Positions 1,920 to 56,931 of a stretch of 64,000 bases of DNA are shown here, piece by piece. The stretch comes from Sphingomonas sp. KRR8 (lineage in GTDB: Bacteria > Pseudomonadota > Alphaproteobacteria > Sphingomonadales > Sphingomonadaceae): contig NZ_CP097462.1 of assembly GCF_023559245.1 (NCBI RefSeq), positions 1,116,001-1,180,000 on the forward strand, in the 5' to 3' direction. The notes beneath the pieces are model-generated. The model did not search any database, was not told where the DNA came from, and worked only from the letters and a program-made list of their open reading frames with translations. The position numbers were made by a program, and so were the translations under genes. Position 1 is the stretch's first letter, and each line of letters starts with the position of its first letter.

Positions 1920-3902
1920 ATGACGGACCTGTTCGGCTCTTCCTCCGCTTCATCCACCCCCGACAGCTACGACGCCTCGGCAATCGAGGTGCTGGAGGGG
2001 CTAGAGCCGGTGCGCCGTCGTCCGGGGATGTATATCGGCGGCACCGACGCCCGCGCGCTTCACCACCTCGCCGCCGAAGTGATCGACAACTCGATGGACG
2101 AGGCTGTCGCCGGCCACGCCAGCCGGATCGAAGTCACGCTGGAGCCCGGCAATCGCCTGACCGTCACCGACAACGGCCGCGGCATTCCGGTCGACCCCCA
2201 TCCAAAATTCCCGGGCAAGTCGGCGCTCGAGGTCATCCTCACCACGCTCCACTCGGGCGGCAAGTTCGAGGGCAAGGCCTACTCCACCTCGGGCGGCCTG
2301 CACGGCGTGGGCGTCAGCGTGGTCAACGCCCTTTCGACCGAGACGGTGATCGAGGTCGCCAAGGACAAGAAGCTTTACCGTCAGACCTTTTCCCGCGGGG
2401 CCGCGACCGGCCCGCTCGAGGAAGTCGGCGCCGCACCCAACCGCCGCGGAACCAGCGTCTCCTTCCACCCAGACCCTGAGATCTTCGGCCCGGACAACAA
2501 CTTCGACCCCGCGCGGCTGTATCGCCTTGCCCGGTCCAAGGCCTACCTCTTCGCCGGGGTCGAGATCCGTTGGAAGTGCGATCCCAGCCTCGCCTCTCCG
2601 GACGTCCCCGAAGCTGCCACCTTCCAGTTCCCGGGCGGTCTGCTCGACCATTTGAACGAGCAGCTTGGCGAGCGCCCCTGCGTAACCAACGCGCCTTTCG
2701 CGGGCCGGCAGGACTTCCCCGATGGTCAGGGCAGCGCCGAATGGGCGGTCGCCTGGCCGCTCTACTCCGACGGCTCGGAAAGCTACTATTGCAACACCAT
2801 CCCGACGCCCGACGGCGGCACCCATGAAGCGGGCCTGCGCGCTGCCTTGTCCAAGGGCATCCGCGCGTTCGGTGAGCTGGTCGGCAACAAGCGCGCCAAG
2901 GACATCACCCCGGACGACGTGTTCAACGGGGTCGAGCTGATGCTGTCCGTCTTCATCCGCAATCCTCACTTTCAGAGCCAGACCAAGGACCGCCTCACCA
3001 GCCTCGAGGCCGCGCGCTTCGTCGAGGCCGCCGTCCGCGACCATTTCGACCATTACCTCGCCGGCAACATGGACCGGGGCCGCGCGCTGCTCGGCTCGAT
3101 CATCGAGCGGATGGACGAGCGGCTGAAGCGCCGGGCCGAGCGCGAGGTGAAGCGCAAGACTGCCACGAGTGCCCGCAAGCTCCGCCTGCCCGGCAAGCTC
3201 ACCGACTGCGCCAGCGACGACCCCGACGGAACCGAGCTGTTCATCGTCGAGGGCGACAGCGCCGGTGGCAGCGCCAAGCAGGCGCGCAACCGCAAGACCC
3301 AGGCGATCCTCCCCATCCGGGGCAAGATCCTCAACGTCGCCAGTGCCACCCAGGACAAGATCCGCGCCAACTCCGAGATCGCCGACCTTCAACTGGCGCT
3401 CGGCTGTGGCATCCGGGACAAGTTCGACGAAGCGGCGTTGCGTTATGAGCGGATCATCATCATGACGGACGCCGACGTCGACGGCGCGCATATCGCCACC
3501 CTGCTGATGACCTTCTTCTTCCAGGAAATGCCCGAGCTGGTCCGCCGTGGCCACCTGTTCCTGGCCCAGCCACCGCTCTACCGCCTGACGGCCGGCGCAA
3601 AGACTCTCTACGCCCGCGACGACGCCCACCGCGCCGAGCTTGAGGCCAAGGAGTTCAAGGGCAAGAAGGTCGAAGTCAGCCGCTTCAAGGGCCTGGGCGA
3701 AATGAACCCCAACCAGCTCAAGGAAACCACCATGGACCCGGCCACCCGCTCCATGCTGCGGGTCACCCTGCCGAGCCAGTATGAGGACCGGCAGCCGATC
3801 AAGGATCTCGTCGAGCGGCTGATGGGCAAGAACCCCGAACACCGCTTCGCCTTCATCCAGAGCCGGGCCAGCGCGGTGAGCGAAGACGAGCTCGACGCCT
3901 AG
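1920..3902 (+). CDS. parE: DNA topoisomerase IV subunit B
   Basis: This is the ATPase subunit of the type IIA topoisomerase that unlinks daughter chromosomes; it works with ParC. The product is 660 residues. The GHKL ATPase motifs are EVIDNSMDEA (53-62), DNGRGIP (84-90) and GLHGVGVSVVNALS. The Toprim domain has EGDSAGGSAKQARNR (near 442) and TDADVDGAH (near 515). The sequence after EGDSAGGSAKQ (ARNRKTQAILPIRGKILNV) and the overall length favour ParE over GyrB. The ATG at 1920 starts MTDLFGSSS; an in-frame extension to 1836 runs back into the hsp20 promoter and is rejected. Confidence 0.95.
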   Translation: MTDLFGSSSASSTPDSYDASAIEVLEGLEPVRRRPGMYIGGTDARALHHLAAEVIDNSMDEAVAGHASRIEVTLEPGNRLTVTDNGRGIPVDPHPKFPGKSALEVILTTLHSGGKFEGKAYSTSGGLHGVGVSVVNALSTETVIEVAKDKKLYRQTFSRGAATGPLEEVGAAPNRRGTSVSFHPDPEIFGPDNNFDPARLYRLARSKAYLFAGVEIRWKCDPSLASPDVPEAATFQFPGGLLDHLNEQLGERPCVTNAPFAGRQDFPDGQGSAEWAVAWPLYSDGSESYYCNTIPTPDGGTHEAGLRAALSKGIRAFGELVGNKRAKDITPDDVFNGVELMLSVFIRNPHFQSQTKDRLTSLEAARFVEAAVRDHFDHYLAGNMDRGRALLGSIIERMDERLKRRAEREVKRKTATSARKLRLPGKLTDCASDDPDGTELFIVEGDSAGGSAKQARNRKTQAILPIRGKILNVASATQDKIRANSEIADLQLALGCGIRDKFDEAALRYERIIIMTDADVDGAHIATLLMTFFFQEMPELVRRGHLFLAQPPLYRLTAGAKTLYARDDAHRAELEAKEFKGKKVEVSRFKGLGEMNPNQLKETTMDPATRSMLRVTLPSQYEDRQPIKDLVERLMGKNPEHRFAFIQSRASAVSEDELDA

Positions 3903-4256
3903 ATGGAAGCGGCAGAACGAAGTTTCCGTGCTGCGCCGTATGGTCAGGATTCGGGAGCCGGAAACTCCGGCGGAATTCTGCCGTCCGATGTTCTATCCCT
4001 GAAGCTTCCAAGTTTCCCTGGTGTGACCCTCGGACGGGGCAAGTTTCCCCGGTAAGCCGGCCACCACCGCCCACAGCGGGCGCTGTAATGCGCCAACTAG
4101 CCTTGGCCGATTGTCAAAGACGCCGTCACCCGCAAGTCGATCCAAGCAGTCAAAACCCTACTGTTCAAGCTGGGTGGCGAATGTCTGATCTGGATGGAAA
4201 GCCGACGTTCGATTGATGCGGCTCGTGACACCAGCACTCTCCCGGCCAGCACTCGA
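3903..4256. other. Intergenic stretch with repeat copy, no gene seen
   Basis: This is 354 bases between parE and the FkbM gene, with lower GC than parE. A small hairpin (GCCGG-AAACT-CCGGC) lies near 3955 without a T-run. A copy of the dispersed inverted repeat sits at 4179-4210. The open frames crossing this stretch have no recognisable product or ribosome binding site. Confidence 0.6.
4179..4210 (+). repeat. Dispersed short inverted repeat, copy 1
   Basis: The arms are GAATGTC and GACGTTC around a centre containing TGGATGGAAAGC. It aligns with the copies at 6597, 58451, 62633 and 63868. The shared pattern is an AATGTC-type left arm, then TGG, a short gap, GAAAGC, and a GACATT-type right arm, about 30 bases in all. 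Confidence 0.7.
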
Positions 4257-5024
4257 TCAAGCTCGCCCGCGTATCTCGCTTTCTTTCTCGATGGGCAGAG
4301 CGAAGTAATTTGTCGTTCGCCTTGGGTATTCGTGGCTGTCGAGAAATCCGTCGAGAGTCATGGCGCCACCTGTTCCCGCCAATCGGTTCGGGGCGAACAG
4401 ACCGTAATTGCGCTCAGCGAACCATGCGAACATTGCCTCCTTGGTGTAGCCCAGCACGTTGCCCGGTCCACTTTCGAACATGATCGTTGGACGGCTGCGT
4501 TCAATTAGCTTGTCAGACCCGCGGAGTACGCCAAGCTCTGCTCCCTCGACGTCGATCTTGATCAGATCCGCTCGGTCTACCAGACTATCCAGACGGCACT
4601 TGGAGACGACTATCTTCTTCCCATGAGGCCGCTCAGCGAGAGAGCTGTACCCGCTCTCTTCTGTGTCGACATAGAATGTCACTGAGCCTGCATCCTCGGA
4701 CAGCGCGCACGAATGTATCGCAACCCCGGGAAACCTGCGGCGGAGCTTTTCCGCCTTTTCTGGTATGGCTTCGAAAGCCTCGATATGGGCCGTCGGGCAT
4801 TGATGCTGGACCTCGGCAATCACCGAACCAATGTGAGCGCCCACGTCGAGAAAAACTTCCCTTGGCCGGCACAGCTTTACAAGTAGCGGAAGAGCCAATT
4901 GGTCGTTTACGGTTGTTCCTAGCGCCACTCGTGGCGTTCGTAGCAGGCTGATAACGTCGCGAACGCTCAACGCCATTCTGCCCAGTGATGTGCCGACTAG
5001 ACGCTCTCTCAACATCTCCATCAC
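4257..5024 (-). CDS. FkbM family SAM-dependent methyltransferase
   Basis: The product is 255 residues with a class I methyltransferase fold. The SAM-binding motif is EVFLDVGAHIGSV (near 57-69), followed by HIEAFEAIPEKAEKLRR, the typical FkbM acidic strand. The motif LIKIDVEGAELGVLRG (near 155-170) is the family signature. FkbM enzymes O-methylate sugars or small molecules and are common in capsule and O-antigen clusters. It lies 19 bases downstream of the acyltransferase gene on the same strand, so both probably modify one surface glycan. The start may be GTG at 5024 or ATG at 5021. The acceptor is unknown. Confidence 0.85.
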   Translation of the reverse strand: MMEMLRERLVGTSLGRMALSVRDVISLLRTPRVALGTTVNDQLALPLLVKLCRPREVFLDVGAHIGSVIAEVQHQCPTAHIEAFEAIPEKAEKLRRRFPGVAIHSCALSEDAGSVTFYVDTEESGYSSLAERPHGKKIVVSKCRLDSLVDRADLIKIDVEGAELGVLRGSDKLIERSRPTIMFESGPGNVLGYTKEAMFAWFAERNYGLFAPNRLAGTGGAMTLDGFLDSHEYPRRTTNYFALPIEKESEIRGRA

Positions 5025-5043
5025 CCCCCGGTCAAAGGCGAAC

Positions 5044-6039
5044 CTACACCACCCCCATCGTGGCGTTAGCGCGCACTCGCTTTGCCAGAGCCATAGACGG
5101 CCGCTCCAGCGCCCACCAGAAAGCTACAGCAAAGGCGATGTCGATGGCCAGCACCAGCGGAAACGAGGCCCACTCAGGCAGCTTGGCCTTCACGCACAGG
5201 AAGAACGCTGCCCCAGTCACAGGGTTGTGAGTCAGGTACAGACTGTACGAAATCTGACCGAGGACCTGAAGCGGGCGCCAGCTTAGGCCGTTCTCAAGCC
5301 ATCCCCTCTGCCCGGCGACCATGAGCCCTAACGCGGTCACGACGGCAACCGATGTAAACTCGTTGGGTCCGGCAGCCATCAGAAGCACGGCAAGGGCGAC
5401 GCAGGCCAGCGCTGCTCTCCGGTCCTTGACGCCCCAGTAAGCCAAGGATCCGATAAAGAAGCTGTGCCACAGGTTGACGAACAGACCGCGCATCTCTGGC
5501 AGCCAATGCGTCCCCCACAGTACTGCTATGAGCGCGAGGGGCACGCCTACCCACGCCTTTCCGTATCGCTGCGCCAGACCGACGGACACCACCAGCACTA
5601 GGTAGAACTGGACTTCGTAGGTGAGCGTCCAGAACACCGGATTGATCTGGTCAAAGCCAAGCAGCGTTTGCGTGTAGGTCAGGTGGGCAAGAACCTGCCC
5701 ACCGCTCGGCCATTGGTGGGTGTGGGCCGAGAATGCGCCGGCGAGCACAGCGAGTGCAATCGCTGCCCAATAAGGCGGATCGAGCCTGAGTGAGCGCCGC
5801 AGCGCAAACCTTCCGACGAAGCCTGACGTGATCTGCTTGTCGCGGATCGAGTGGGCAATCACGAACCCCGAGAGCGCGAAGAAGATCGCCACTCCGCCTT
5901 CACTGGTTTGAAACAGCGGCTTCACGACCCAACCCGGAAGGTGCGCCTTCAAGGTCTCGATGTGACCGCCAGCCGAAGCGTGGAACAGCACGATCCAGAA
6001 CGCGGCGACCCCCCGCAACGCCTGGATCAGCTTGAACAT
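5044..6039 (-). CDS. Acyltransferase 3 family membrane protein (OafA/YrhL type)
   Basis: The product is 331 residues with about ten membrane helices. The N-terminus MFKLIQALRGVAAFWIVLFH carries the conserved RG...H of the family, and FFALSGFVIAHS with a downstream RR pair is the second family motif. Members transfer acetyl or other acyl groups from the cytoplasm onto surface polysaccharides or peptidoglycan. The ATG at 6039 overlaps the stop of the preceding 29-codon gene as TGATG, which supports this start over an upstream frame extension to 6219. It probably forms an operon with the FkbM gene and three micro-genes upstream. The substrate is unknown. Confidence 0.88.
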   Translation of the reverse strand: MFKLIQALRGVAAFWIVLFHASAGGHIETLKAHLPGWVVKPLFQTSEGGVAIFFALSGFVIAHSIRDKQITSGFVGRFALRRSLRLDPPYWAAIALAVLAGAFSAHTHQWPSGGQVLAHLTYTQTLLGFDQINPVFWTLTYEVQFYLVLVVSVGLAQRYGKAWVGVPLALIAVLWGTHWLPEMRGLFVNLWHSFFIGSLAYWGVKDRRAALACVALAVLLMAAGPNEFTSVAVVTALGLMVAGQRGWLENGLSWRPLQVLGQISYSLYLTHNPVTGAAFFLCVKAKLPEWASFPLVLAIDIAFAVAFWWALERPSMALAKRVRANATMGVV

Positions 6040-6128
6040 CAGAGGACGACGGACAGGACGTTGTAGGCGATCGCTAGGACGACTGCGAGAGTGACGACCC
6101 ACGCGATGCAGCTTGACCCCGCTTTCAA
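6039..6128 (-). CDS. 29-residue single-helix membrane peptide
   Basis: The frame begins at TTG 6128 and encodes a short head (MKAGSSC) followed by one long hydrophobic stretch (IAWVVTLAVVLAIAYNVLSVVL). GGAAGG lies about nine bases upstream. The TTG overlaps the stop of the upstream zinc-ribbon gene as TTGA, and its own TGA overlaps the acyltransferase ATG as TGATG. Being locked between two genes with standard translational-coupling overlaps is the main evidence that it is translated. It could be a membrane partner of the acyltransferase. No family is recognised. Confidence 0.55.
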   Translation of the reverse strand: MKAGSSCIAWVVTLAVVLAIAYNVLSVVL

Positions 6129-6253
6129 AGCTGATCGCCTTCCCAACAAGCGTCACAGAGACGACTAAACCGCGTCTTGTCACCGCACACGTTGCAGCGC
6201 CCCGGCTTCCGAGGAACACACAGAAGCAGCTTCAGGCGGTCGATAAGCGTCAT
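6125..6253 (-). CDS. 42-residue zinc-ribbon micro-protein
   Basis: The product has two CxxC knuckles, CNVC (20-23) and CDAC (33-36), nine residues apart, as in small zinc ribbons. A basic, amphipathic N-terminus precedes them (MTLIDRLKLLLCVPRKPGR). The ATG overlaps the stop of the upstream micro-gene as ATGA, and the TGA overlaps the next start as TTGA. Such tiny zinc proteins often bind nucleic acid or a partner protein, or occur in phage genomes, but nothing here decides its role. Confidence 0.62.
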   Translation of the reverse strand: MTLIDRLKLLLCVPRKPGRCNVCGDKTRFSRLCDACWEGDQL

Positions 6254-6387
6254 TGTGCAACCATCTTAGCTACATCGATGAAACCCAAGACCGTAGCGCC
6301 CACGTACCCGGCGACTAGGATGAAGGCGATAGCTGCCATCCACACACATCCTGCTGGCGGCCCGTTGGGCTTCTGCTCGTCGTCCAT
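6250..6387 (-). CDS. 45-residue membrane micro-protein
   Basis: The N-terminus is short, acidic and soluble (MDDEQKPNGPPAG). One membrane helix follows (VWMAAIAFILVAGYVGATVL), with a short tail ending in MVAQ. It is the first gene of the interlocked group 6387-4257 and its TGA overlaps the next ATG as ATGA. Upstream, GAAGTGGG is only a modest ribosome binding site. No family is recognised. The acidic head and single helix suggest a type II or type III small membrane protein. Confidence 0.55.
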   Translation of the reverse strand: MDDEQKPNGPPAGCVWMAAIAFILVAGYVGATVLGFIDVAKMVAQ

Positions 6388-6596
6388 GCCGCACCCACTT
6401 CAGCGATAACCACTGAGTTAGCAACTGCCCACGTCTCCTACACGTGCACCGGCCGTGTGACGCTGCAGAGCTGTCAAAGCGAAACGACGCCTATGTCTCA
6501 GGTGATTTAGCAAGACGCGGGCGATCAGCCGAGTATCCTTGAGCAGACGCTTGCGGTTGAACGTGCGCAATGCGTGGAACTCAGATGTTCGGGGAT

Positions 6597-6628
6597 GGAT
6601 GTCTGAGTTCGGTGGTGAGCGGACATCC
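6597..6628 (+). repeat. Dispersed short inverted repeat, copy 2
   Basis: The perfect 7-base arms GGATGTC and GACATCC surround a centre with CGGTGGTGAGC. It aligns over about 30 bases with the copy at 63868, including the shared TGTCTGA left of centre. Confidence 0.7.
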
Positions 6629-6666
6629 ACTCAATGTGACATAAACGTCCCTCGTCCAGAAGCACT

Positions 6667-6711
6667 GACTCGTCCAACAATTCCCTTTGTGGTATCTTCG
6701 AAGGACGAGTC
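6667..6711 (+). repeat. 9-base inverted repeat before the PEP-CTERM gene
   Basis: The arms GACTCGTCC (6667-6675) and GGACGAGTC (6703-6711) are perfect complements with 27 bases between. The right arm ends seven bases before the ribosome binding site GGAGGG (6718-6723). It could be an operator or a leader hairpin. Confidence 0.5.
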
Positions 6712-6731
6712 GAGTCTGGAGGGCGCAGTCG

Positions 6732-7242
6732 ATGCGTGGGCTATACGCGTTGCTCGGCATTCTCAGCCTTTTTGCGACATCTTCGGCAGGAGCTGCGGTC
6801 CAGACTTACACTCTCACAGGTACGGTGAACGGACTTCAAACAGTTTTTCGTTACCTGTGACGGCCCGAACGGGCCCATCTGCCCCGTCACTACGTCTTTC
6901 GCACAAAGCTTTGCTATTTTTCCGTATCTTGACCTACACCCAGGTGAGAACGTCTTCACCTTCGGAACGCCGAATCTCGGGTTATACACCGGCACGATCC
7001 TCAGCACTGAATCCCTTAGCGGTATTGATCTGACTTTCGGCCAAAGGAGCTGCTCGCCCAGCGTTTCTCCTCCGCCAGGCTGCATCATCCGTACAGGATC
7101 GACTTCGACTTTCGATGTCCAAGTGGGACATGTGCCCGAACCGGCCACTTGGACCCTGATGCTGCTTGGCTTTGGCCTAGTCGGAGCAGTGATACGGCGG
7201 TCTTTCGGGCGGTCAGGACCAAGGCGAGTTGCCCTTACCTGA
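6732..7242 (+). pseudogene. PEPxxWA-CTERM surface protein, frameshifted
   Basis: The ATG at 6732 follows GGAGGG (6718-6723) and encodes a signal peptide (MRGLYALLGILSLFATSSAGAA). That frame stops at 6858-6860. The rest of the protein continues in another frame. Reading four instead of five T at 6844-6848 joins the two, giving a protein of about 169 residues. The C-terminus is VPEPATWTLMLLGFGLVGAVIRR, the PEPxxWA-CTERM exosortase sorting signal (7132-7200). Either the gene is broken, or this is a homopolymer sequencing error or slippage. The exosortase-A-type genes at 33-36 kb fit such a protein sorting system. The function of the mature protein is unknown. Confidence 0.8.
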
Positions 7243-7312
7243 CGTCGGCGCACTAGTTCACCCTACGGGCTTCCGTCGGTGAAGACATTTACGTGTTGCA
7301 TCTCACGACCCC

Positions 7313-8803
7313 TCAGCCGGCCCGCGCGCGCATTCGGTCAATCATTACCTTGAGGCTTGGCTTCTGGCCCGTCGCCAGCAGGCTTTGGCGGAACAGGCGG
7401 CCGAGCATCACCAGCTGGAGCGCGGTCCACGCCAGCAGCAGCGCGCCGGCCACCAGCACCTGCCAGGTCGGAATGCCGGAACCCAGCCGGGCCAGGACCG
7501 TGAACGGCGTCCAGATCGGCACAAAGGTCAGCACGGTCAGCGCGACACCGCCGCCACCGCTGAGCACTGCCTGGATGAGGACCGTCACCGGCAGGATCAG
7601 CGCCAGCATGACCGGCATGAGGTAGCCCTGCGCCTCCCGCATGGACTCGGTCATCGCGCCGATCGCGAGGAAGAACAGCGAGATCGAGACATAGCCCACC
7701 ACCAGGAAGAAGATCATGGTGGCGATGGTGCCGGGGGAGCGCAGCGGCTCCACCGCCGGACGGATGAAGTCGGCGATGGCGCCCTGGGTGGCGGTGGCCG
7801 CGACCACCCCGCACAGGATCCACACGGCGATCATCAACATGCCGACCGCGACGGTCCCGATCAGCTTGCCGTACATCAGCTCCTCCGGGCTGACGCAGGC
7901 GAGCACGACCTCGATCAGCTTGTTGCCGCGTTCCTCGACGCTGCCCTGAAGCATCCAGCTGCCCGACAGCATCAGACTCATCATCAGCAGGTAGCAGGCG
8001 GCCAGCGGAAGCACGGAGCGCACCACCATCGCTTCCTTGAGGCCACCGCCGGGCGGCGGGGTCGAAACGGCCAGCGCCGGGGCGATCTGGCCGGCGGCGG
8101 TGGCGGCTTGCGGGCTGAGGCCCTGGCTCTGGAGGAAGCCGGTGCGCAACTGGCGGGTCAATACGTCCTGGACCAGCGCCATCAGCCGCGGCGAGGGGTC
8201 GGAGTTGGCGAGCAGCCGGGCCTGTCCCGTACGGGTAAAGTCGGCCGGGATGACGAGGATGGTGTCCACCGCCTTCACCGCCTTGTCGGCCGGGTGAAGC
8301 AGTGGTTGCGCGGCCTGCTCAACCCCTTCCGGCGGCGCGGCGGCAAGCGCTGGCGCGGCCGGTACGACGGCATAGTCGGGGTCGGGCGCCTTGAACTCCG
8401 GGACGCCCGAAGGCTTGACCCGGTCGATCGCCTTCAGCGCCGCTGGCAGGCCGCCGGATGCACGGAAGGCAGCGACGTCGGCCTCGGTGTAGTAACGGTC
8501 GTGCTCGGCCCAGGGCTGGCCCGGTCCGGCCGCGGCAAGATCGTGGCGGCGGACGTAGCGCGACAGCTTGCCCAGCACCTCACGCTGCTGGTCGTCATCG
8601 ATCCGGGCCGCAAGCGCGGAGGCCACCGCGCCGCCCGAGCGATCAACGATCATCAGCCGGGAAGCGTCGTCGTCCTTGAGGAACTTGGACGCGAGGGGTC
8701 CGAAGGAGAGCGCCAGCGGCAGGATCAGCAAGGTCAGCCAGAAACTCCGCATGGCGGTGATCTGCTTGAACTCGCGCTCGGCGACGATCAGGATATTCCT
8801 CAC
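7313..8803 (-). CDS. ABC-2 type exporter permease (NatB-like)
   Basis: The product is 496 residues. One N-terminal helix (about 20-40) is followed by a large extracytoplasmic domain rich in Ala/Pro (about 50-270). Six helices follow, with the motif SVEERGNKLIEVVLACVSPEELMYGKL, which is typical of COG1668 NatB permeases. Substrates of this class are sodium ions, drugs or unknown. The GTG at 8803 overlaps the stop of the ATPase gene as GTGA, so the two subunits are translationally coupled. A frame extension to 9127 lies inside the ATPase gene and is a shadow. Confidence 0.88.
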   Translation of the reverse strand: MRNILIVAEREFKQITAMRSFWLTLLILPLALSFGPLASKFLKDDDASRLMIVDRSGGAVASALAARIDDDQQREVLGKLSRYVRRHDLAAAGPGQPWAEHDRYYTEADVAAFRASGGLPAALKAIDRVKPSGVPEFKAPDPDYAVVPAAPALAAAPPEGVEQAAQPLLHPADKAVKAVDTILVIPADFTRTGQARLLANSDPSPRLMALVQDVLTRQLRTGFLQSQGLSPQAATAAGQIAPALAVSTPPPGGGLKEAMVVRSVLPLAACYLLMMSLMLSGSWMLQGSVEERGNKLIEVVLACVSPEELMYGKLIGTVAVGMLMIAVWILCGVVAATATQGAIADFIRPAVEPLRSPGTIATMIFFLVVGYVSISLFFLAIGAMTESMREAQGYLMPVMLALILPVTVLIQAVLSGGGGVALTVLTFVPIWTPFTVLARLGSGIPTWQVLVAGALLLAWTALQLVMLGRLFRQSLLATGQKPSLKVMIDRMRARAG

Positions 8804-53149: not shown

Positions 53150-53812
53150 ATGGAACCCGTGACCCAACCCGCGCCAGCCACGCCGGCGATCCCCCGTTCG
53201 CTCTTCTTGCTCTCCATCTTCTACGGCGGAATGGTCTGCATCGCGGGCGTGCTCGGCAACAAGCAGGTGGCGCTCGGCCCGCTCGCGGTCGAGGCAGGCA
53301 TCTTCGCCTTCCTGCTGCTGGTCGTGACCAGCTCGTCCATCGCCGAACTGCACGGCCGCGAAACCGCCAACCGCCTGGTGCTGTGGGGCTTCATCCCACT
53401 GCTGGTCAGCTTGGCCCTCACCATTCTGGTGCTCAACGTCCCGGCCGCGCCAGCGATGGACCCGGCTCGCCTGTCCGCGTTCGAAACGATGATGAACGGC
53501 ACGCCGCGCATCTGGCTTGGCGGGATCGTTGCCTACGGACTGTCGACCCTGCTCAACGTTACCATCTTCACGCGCCTCAAGGGCCAGGAAGGGTCACGCC
53601 TGCTGTGGCTGCGCTCGGCCGTCGCGTCCGGCCTCAGCCAGATCGTCGACACGCTGATCTTCATCGGGATCGCCTTCTACGGGGTGTTTCCGATCGGTGA
53701 GCTGCTGCTGGGGCAGATGCTCGCCAAGGTCACGCTGTCGATTGTGCTCGTTCCGCCACTCATCTACTTTTTCGTGTGGCTTGGGCGCCGCCTGGACGCT
53801 CCGCAGTCTTGA
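53150..53812 (+). CDS. Queuosine precursor transporter (VUT/YhhQ family)
   Basis: The product is 220 residues with six membrane helices. The family motif SSIAELHGRETANRLVLWGF and the later ASGLSQIVDTLIFIGIAFYG match YhhQ proteins, which import 7-cyano-7-deazaguanine or preQ1. No preQ1 riboswitch was seen upstream. The ATG at 53150 is preferred to the frame opening inside the exporter gene. Confidence 0.9.
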   Translation: MEPVTQPAPATPAIPRSLFLLSIFYGGMVCIAGVLGNKQVALGPLAVEAGIFAFLLLVVTSSSIAELHGRETANRLVLWGFIPLLVSLALTILVLNVPAAPAMDPARLSAFETMMNGTPRIWLGGIVAYGLSTLLNVTIFTRLKGQEGSRLLWLRSAVASGLSQIVDTLIFIGIAFYGVFPIGELLLGQMLAKVTLSIVLVPPLIYFFVWLGRRLDAPQS

Positions 53813-56857: not shown

Positions 56858-56931
56858 GCGGGTATGATGTAATGGTAGCCTGTCAGCTTCCCATGCTGAA
56901 CGCGCGGGTTCGATTCCCGCTACCCGCTCCA
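56858..56931 (+). tRNA. tRNA-Gly (CCC)
   Basis: The acceptor stem GCGGGTA pairs with TACCCGC, and CCA is encoded. The anticodon arm is TCAGC-TTCCCAT-GCTGA with anticodon CCC, so it reads GGG. The T arm is CGCGGGTTCGATTCCCGC. The D stem is imperfect, as often in alphaproteobacterial tRNA-Gly(CCC). Its 3' end marks the change from core genes to accessory genes, so it may be an integration site. Confidence 0.95.

Follow-up and report, generated by a model that had tools for sequence, protein, structure and literature searches.

Are very short reading frames that interlock with the start of an acyltransferase gene genes in their own right, and do their products assist the enzyme? This question is raised by a locus of Sphingomonas sp. 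KRR8, whose genome is a single 2.87-Mb contig. Within a stretch of 64,000 nucleotides of this contig (the window, to which coordinates refer), five consecutive frames lie on one strand: three tiny frames (m1, m2, and m3) linked by stop-start overlaps, a gene for a stand-alone acyltransferase-3 (AT3), and a gene for an FkbM family methyltransferase. We tentatively read the locus as an acquired operon for surface-glycan modification, in which the AT3 and FkbM enzymes are accompanied by three coupled accessory micro-proteins. The anatomy of the locus, the families of the two enzymes, and the absence of the block from the corresponding interval of a sister species were observed directly.

Results

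The m1 and m2 frames are joined by an ATGA overlap and the m2 and m3 frames by a TTGA overlap, whereas the stop of m3 and the start of AT3 share base 6039 (TGATG). The junction between AT3 and FkbM is a plain gap of 19 bases without overlap. An initial annotation of this DNA, made from the sequence alone, had the frame lengths (45, 42, and 29 codons), the coordinates, all three overlaps, and the 19-base spacing correct; it also spoke of four consecutive overlapping starts, of which three do overlap but the FkbM junction does not, and m3 requires a TTG start. By eye, a GGAAGG sequence stands 9 bases ahead of this TTG, and no clear Shine-Dalgarno or other ribosome-binding motif precedes the AT3 start. 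Table 1 lists the features of the locus.

Table 1. Features of the micro-gene, AT3, and FkbM locus and of the interval that contains it.
Feature	Coordinates	Strand	Description
m1 micro-gene	6387..6250	-	ATG start, 45 aa; acidic, proline-containing N-terminus, then one hydrophobic helix
m2 micro-gene	6253..6125	-	ATG start, 42 aa; C-x2-C-G ... C-x2-C-W
m3 micro-gene	6128..6039	-	TTG start, 29 aa; nearly all one hydrophobic helix
AT3 acyltransferase-3, stand-alone	6039..5044	-	ATG start, 331 aa; PF01757
FkbM family methyltransferase	5024..4257	-	GTG start, 255 aa; PF05050
Variable lower-GC interval, parE to ABC transporter gene	3903..7312		Contains the operon and a PEP-CTERM gene
Dispersed intergenic repeat copy	6559..6627		DNA matches in genus relative G068

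Profile searches confirmed the acyltransferase and FkbM identities that had been proposed for the two larger products. AT3 matched PF01757 (expectation value, E, 3.3e-23; 82.7 bits against a cut-off of 31; residues 5-309) and phrog_3333 (E 1e-40), and it carries R9-x10-H20 and the RxxR motif RSLR at residues 82-85. Both Arg-x10-His and RxxR are described as motif residues of AT3 proteins (PMC9833829, PMC9558356), and the spacing of R9 and H20 equals that of the essential R14 and H25 of OafB (PMC9833829). The Pfam scan found no SGNH or other second domain in the 331 residues, and AT3 is thus not an AT3-SGNH fusion. Stand-alone AT3 proteins such as Oac, GumF/G, and ExoZ likewise belong to PF01757 and have one domain with R-x10-H; the available text of PMC9833829 and PMC9558356 mentions no micro-genes for them. 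The FkbM protein matched PF05050 (E 2.8e-18) and TIGR01444 (81.8 bits, cut-off 37.7), and nothing notable sets it apart from other FkbM methyltransferases.

None of the three micro-proteins gave a significant family in the profile scans. The best Pfam match of m2, DZR_2, remained below threshold (E 0.0055; 16.9 bits against a cut-off of 27), and its match to phrog_4228 reached E 0.022. The two CxxC pairs of the previously proposed zinc ribbon are therefore present, but the ribbon itself is suggested by their spacing; judged from this pattern, m2 is likely a zinc ribbon or knuckle. The prediction of two single-helix membrane peptides was borne out for m1 and m3 (hydropathy 2.28 and 2.54, respectively). 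An alignment of m1 with m3 as copies of each other was not convincing, its score being equalled by 4% of 500 shuffles.

We assessed the overlap chain by holding the AT3 start fixed, dinucleotide-shuffling the 420 upstream bases 20,000 times, and counting frames of 25-60 codons. A chain of at least three frames arose in 28 of the 20,000 shuffles (0.0014 per start), which corresponds to an expectation of about 0.08 across the starts of the 54 open reading frames (ORFs) called in the window; the chain is hence unusual, though not decisive alone. A three-deep chain into an ORF of at least 100 codons occurs in the window only at this place (in three nested versions), and two-deep chains into such ORFs occur seven times, this locus counted.

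Codon usage gave a modest signal that is not unique in the window. Against base shuffles, the codon z scores of m1, m2, and m3 were 2.5, 2.2, and 2.7 with the stop included, and 2.4, 2.1, and 2.5 when it was left out (1000 shuffles); m2 was the best of its six frames in the stop-included run, though not in a control run on 205 small ORFs of 28-46 codons. Per-codon scores were -0.08 for m1, -0.20 for m2, and 0.07 for m3, placing m2 just under and the other two above the upper quartile of the small ORFs (-0.15). All three lie far below the mean of the called genes (0.38), and the FkbM gene itself scored only -0.20. Hydropathy separates the micro-frames from other small ORFs better than the codon signal does: values above 2 occurred in two of the 205, namely m1 and the frame of m3. 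A double CxxC was also found in two of the 205, one being m2 and the other an ORF (53517-53657) whose codon z is -2.8. An AT3 start further upstream, at 6219, was rejected because the extension of the AT3 frame across m3 and m2 carries no codon signal (z 0.02). The earlier argument that the overlaps imply translation holds in that such chains are rare in shuffled DNA, but the accompanying codon signal is modest and common to other small frames. On balance, we consider it probable that all three micro-frames are translated.

Relatives of m2 were sought in genome samples that overlap one another; those of the family, order, and class were drawn from larger groups, and that of the genus was not. 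At E ≤ 0.001, m2 was found in its own genome only among 397 family and 385 class genomes, and the same held at E ≤ 0.01 among 71 genus genomes. At E ≤ 0.01, 8 of 246 genomes of the order sample matched, its own counted; we judged the other seven (E 0.003-0.008) to be chance matches, since three hold a stop and four fall in open frames of 100-597 residues. KRR8 itself gave a second m2-like match (E 0.004; 46% over 26 residues), which lies antisense inside a gene that by eye appears to encode a transketolase and was likewise set aside as chance. The cysteine pattern of m2 occurred in 22 stretches of viral contigs, none with a short m2-type ORF; plasmids gave no match at E ≤ 1, and four phage records at E 3-4 were taken as chance. 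The m1 and m3 peptides are too short for genome searches and were sought in fetched loci and, as DNA, within the genus. There, the DNA of 6039-6730 matched two of 70 other genomes, one (G068) in the repeat upstream of m1 and the other (G031) in 40 bases of m3.

The upstream repeat (Table 1) has GCGGACATCC-like half sites, and two similar copies in G068 (L238 and L240) are 74-77% identical over about 69 bases.

AT3 itself has relatives. Within the genus, 8 of 71 genomes matched at E ≤ 1e-10, and within the family 4 of 397 at E ≤ 1e-30, the KRR8 genome being counted in both; the best other matches were 56% and 49% identical in the genus and 50% in the family. By identity, the nearest relatives are in G055 (56%), G352 (50%), and G049 and G209 (both 49%), and the AT3 of G055 adjoins genes that by eye resemble glycosyltransferases. 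Scans of genome contigs and of viral contigs with the single AT3 protein found no match; scans with a four-sequence alignment did, and from these we used the best 80 of 303 relatives in genome contigs and 80 of 85 in viral contigs. Of the resulting 160 loci, 145 could be judged as to whether a micro-ORF encoding a helix or a double CxxC stops close to the AT3 start; such a micro-ORF was present in two, L122 and (less convincingly) L128. No AT3 match was found in plasmids at E ≤ 1e-30, and in named phages there were three weak records (one of 25.4% over 82%, two of 34.6% over 44%). In addition to these scans, 93 fetched loci, mostly of AT3 relatives, were examined; they partly overlap, and some are the same place fetched twice. 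At E ≤ 1e-3 these 93 loci held no FkbM relative, and neither, at E ≤ 1e-15, did the 70 other genomes of the genus. FkbM matched 38 plasmid records, all below 60% identity, four phage records at 28-29%, and one of the 80 viral AT3 loci (L171).

The KRR8 genome has a second AT3 gene, for which no same-strand frame of 25-70 codons was listed that stops in the 150 bases ahead of it. In the sister species (designated G018), another AT3 gene comes right after genes for a membrane protein and for a cysteine-rich protein that by eye is of mercury type (L006, 735-1389). The cysteine-rich frame appeared by eye to be of another kind and was rejected as a counterpart of m2.

The operon lies in a region of altered composition, with a GC content of 0.54-0.63 over about 3751-7500 against 0.65-0.74 across most of the flanks; GC is low in one flanking stretch as well (0.61-0.63 at 1251-2000). 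An HSP20 gene and what by eye are parE and an ABC transporter gene lie in the flanks. In G018, the parE and ABC products are 96% and 89% identical to those of KRR8, and the genes lie about 1.1 kb apart with the operon block absent; the interval contains two other genes, one with DUF2147. In the ABC loci of five further relatives, parE was not in the stretch taken. The tRNA search of the window found a single tRNA, distant at 56858, and the island ends showed no long direct repeat and, by eye, no integrase nearby.

Two neighbouring genes deserve mention. An HSP20 gene (PF00011; 1253-1822, -) precedes parE, and G018 lacks matching DNA there. A PEP-CTERM type gene (6733-7242, +) is divergent from the operon; its start frame ends at about 6860 and its PEPxxWA-CTERM end (7123-7242, 51.6 bits) is in a different frame, so that the gene is apparently frameshifted or the sequence contains an error.

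The initial annotation had also suggested a phage-derived module. AT3 genes of this type do occur as phage cargo, but reading the window genes by eye revealed no phage gene beside the island, which leaves a phage origin as a possibility. In the phage contig L122 (3852-5032), the strand opposite to the tail and head genes carries an AT3 gene whose product is 46% identical to that of KRR8. Five bases separate the likely start of this gene from the end of a 36-codon membrane micro-ORF, possibly by chance. Among nine L122 proteins scanned, four matched tail, connector, or head families, one matched an unknown phage family, and four had no match. In the viral-labelled contig L171 (3120-5017), an FkbM gene (PF05050) stands 38 bases ahead of an AT3 gene.

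The closest precedent is phage D3, in which the gene of the 31-residue hydrophobic peptide Iap adjoins that of an AT3-type O-antigen acetylase, Oac. Iap inhibits the host polymerase Wzy-alpha (PMC4815439), and Iap, Oac, and a phage polymerase-type protein jointly convert the serotype (PMC9658991). The two loci share a short single-helix peptide frame beside an AT3 gene. They differ in that iap is on the strand opposite to oac, the D3 acetylase coding sequence has 687 codons, and D3 includes the polymerase wzy-beta; in the D3 stretch examined, neither a zinc peptide nor an FkbM protein is annotated. We compared m1 and m3 with Iap and with the L122 peptide and found no likeness beyond that of shuffled sequences. 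Of 500 shuffles, 13% (m1) and 55% (m3) reached the score with Iap; for the L122 peptide the figures were 21% and 86%.

Discussion

Taken together, the micro-frames are best described as lineage-specific orphans, probably genes, that accompany an operon of known type. We infer the horizontal acquisition of this operon, its co-transcription, the coupling of its frames, the glycan acceptor, and any role of the peptides. Under our preferred reading, all five frames would be read from one transcript, and the overlaps would couple their translation. A ribosome finishing m3 would thus restart on the AT3 gene, which lacks a clear Shine-Dalgarno motif of its own; by eye, a ribosome-binding motif stands before m3. 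AT3 would move an acyl group, probably acetyl from acetyl-CoA, across the inner membrane to an exported polysaccharide or lipid-linked sugar, and the FkbM enzyme would O-methylate a sugar of the same glycan. The likeliest place for the m1 and m3 peptides is the inner membrane, where they would lie against AT3 or the polymer machinery and serve as accessory or tuning subunits, with the double-CxxC peptide m2 as a putative zinc-bound adaptor or stabiliser in the cytoplasm. The micro-gene set may be young or fast-evolving, which would account for its lack of relatives.

There are partial precedents for such an arrangement. A partner of stand-alone AT3 proteins is said to be one that "may exist" and is "as yet unknown" (PMC9833829). 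The membrane micro-protein DltX binds to its acyltransferase (PMC12148441, PMC5541007), and the likeness to DltX-DltB-DltD of teichoic acid D-alanylation lies in a membrane micro-protein encoded with an acyltransferase; DltB, however, is an MBOAT and not an AT3 protein. A DltX-type acyl shuttle was rejected for m1 and m3, as neither sequence has the C-terminal FxYxxF motif described for DltX. Topic searches of the literature for an AT3 or O-acetyltransferase with a small membrane protein, including in lysogenic conversion, found nothing.

Several observations weigh against our reading. The initial annotation had named conservation of the micro-frames beside AT3 relatives as its own test, and this went against it: tblastn found no convincing relative of m1, m2, or m3 in the 93 fetched loci (best E 0.056) or in the 80 viral AT3 loci (best E 0.40). 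A conserved new system of micro-genes and AT3 is not supported by these comparisons. Since none of the micro-frames recurs beside the AT3 relatives examined, AT3 proteins in general appear independent of them, and a review (PMC9558356) makes the case for AT3 being able to work on its own. The synteny argument relies on G018, in which a replacement is possible, and a search of the operon strand found neither a promoter-like site nor a terminator. In the control run, 7 of the 205 small ORFs had z of at least 2.19 and were best of six, and m1-m3 as listed there fall outside these seven (m1, 2.13; m2, 2.14 and not best; m3, as a 36-codon form, 1.43). The features that distinguish m1-m3 were chosen after having been seen. 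Finally, G031 has a gene, nuoL-like by eye, of which a part (L239, 1501-1540) aligns with forty bases at the end of m3 (6044-6082) at 85% identity and with one gap; the E of 2.4e-4 applies to one genome, and 71 were searched. This likeness is either chance or a hint of captured sequence.

The main rival is a phage-type seroconversion cassette with an Iap-like inhibitor: one or both helix peptides would inhibit a host glycan polymerase while AT3 and FkbM alter the polymer, re-dressing the surface against phages. The D3 arrangement, the micro-ORF before AT3 amid the tail and head genes of L122, and the FkbM-AT3 pair of L171 all speak for it, and two Wzy_C proteins (polymerase or ligase) of the KRR8 genome could be targets. 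However, m1 and m3 resemble Iap and the L122 peptide no more than shuffled sequences do, the island lacks a polymerase gene and shows no phage gene by eye, and iap and oac are on opposite strands. Comparable micro-ORFs in two of 145 loci, one of them doubtful, could arise by chance, and the AT3 matches in named phages are weak. We consider this explanation unlikely, if serious.

Alternatively, the AT3-FkbM pair could be an ordinary one and the micro-frames ahead of it products of chance. The frequency in shuffles would yield a few chains per approximately 2,900 genes (an estimated gene number, with like composition assumed), and the TTG start of m3, the codon filter, the lack of homologues, and the nuoL-like end of m3 all accord with this view. 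Chance does not readily explain the two hydropathy outliers, the cysteine spacing of m2, or an AT3-frame extension devoid of codon signal, and we doubt that it is the answer. It is distinctly improbable that the micro-frames are translated as a cis-only leader that sets the AT3 rate by coupled re-initiation, their peptides having no job: the tight overlaps, the AT3 start without a clear ribosome-binding motif, and the absence of detected peptide conservation would fit, but from a leader one would not expect two peptides that are clean membrane helices and a third with a double CxxC, features that are rare among the 205 small frames.

Returning to the accessory micro-proteins of our preferred reading, a more specific form holds that m1, m2, and m3 form an inner-membrane complex with the stand-alone AT3 and supply or gate acyl handover. 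We regard this as a long shot; if true, it would be one lineage's answer to the question of which partners stand-alone AT3 proteins have. Should the peptides prove to do nothing, what remains is an acquired AT3-FkbM pair of the ordinary kind. If they do act, they would add to the micro-proteins that work on surface-polysaccharide machinery, as do DltX and the Iap peptide of D3. With two membrane micro-proteins and a zinc peptide tied to AT3, a strain-specific operon of this kind would in this respect provide a direct test case for such partners.

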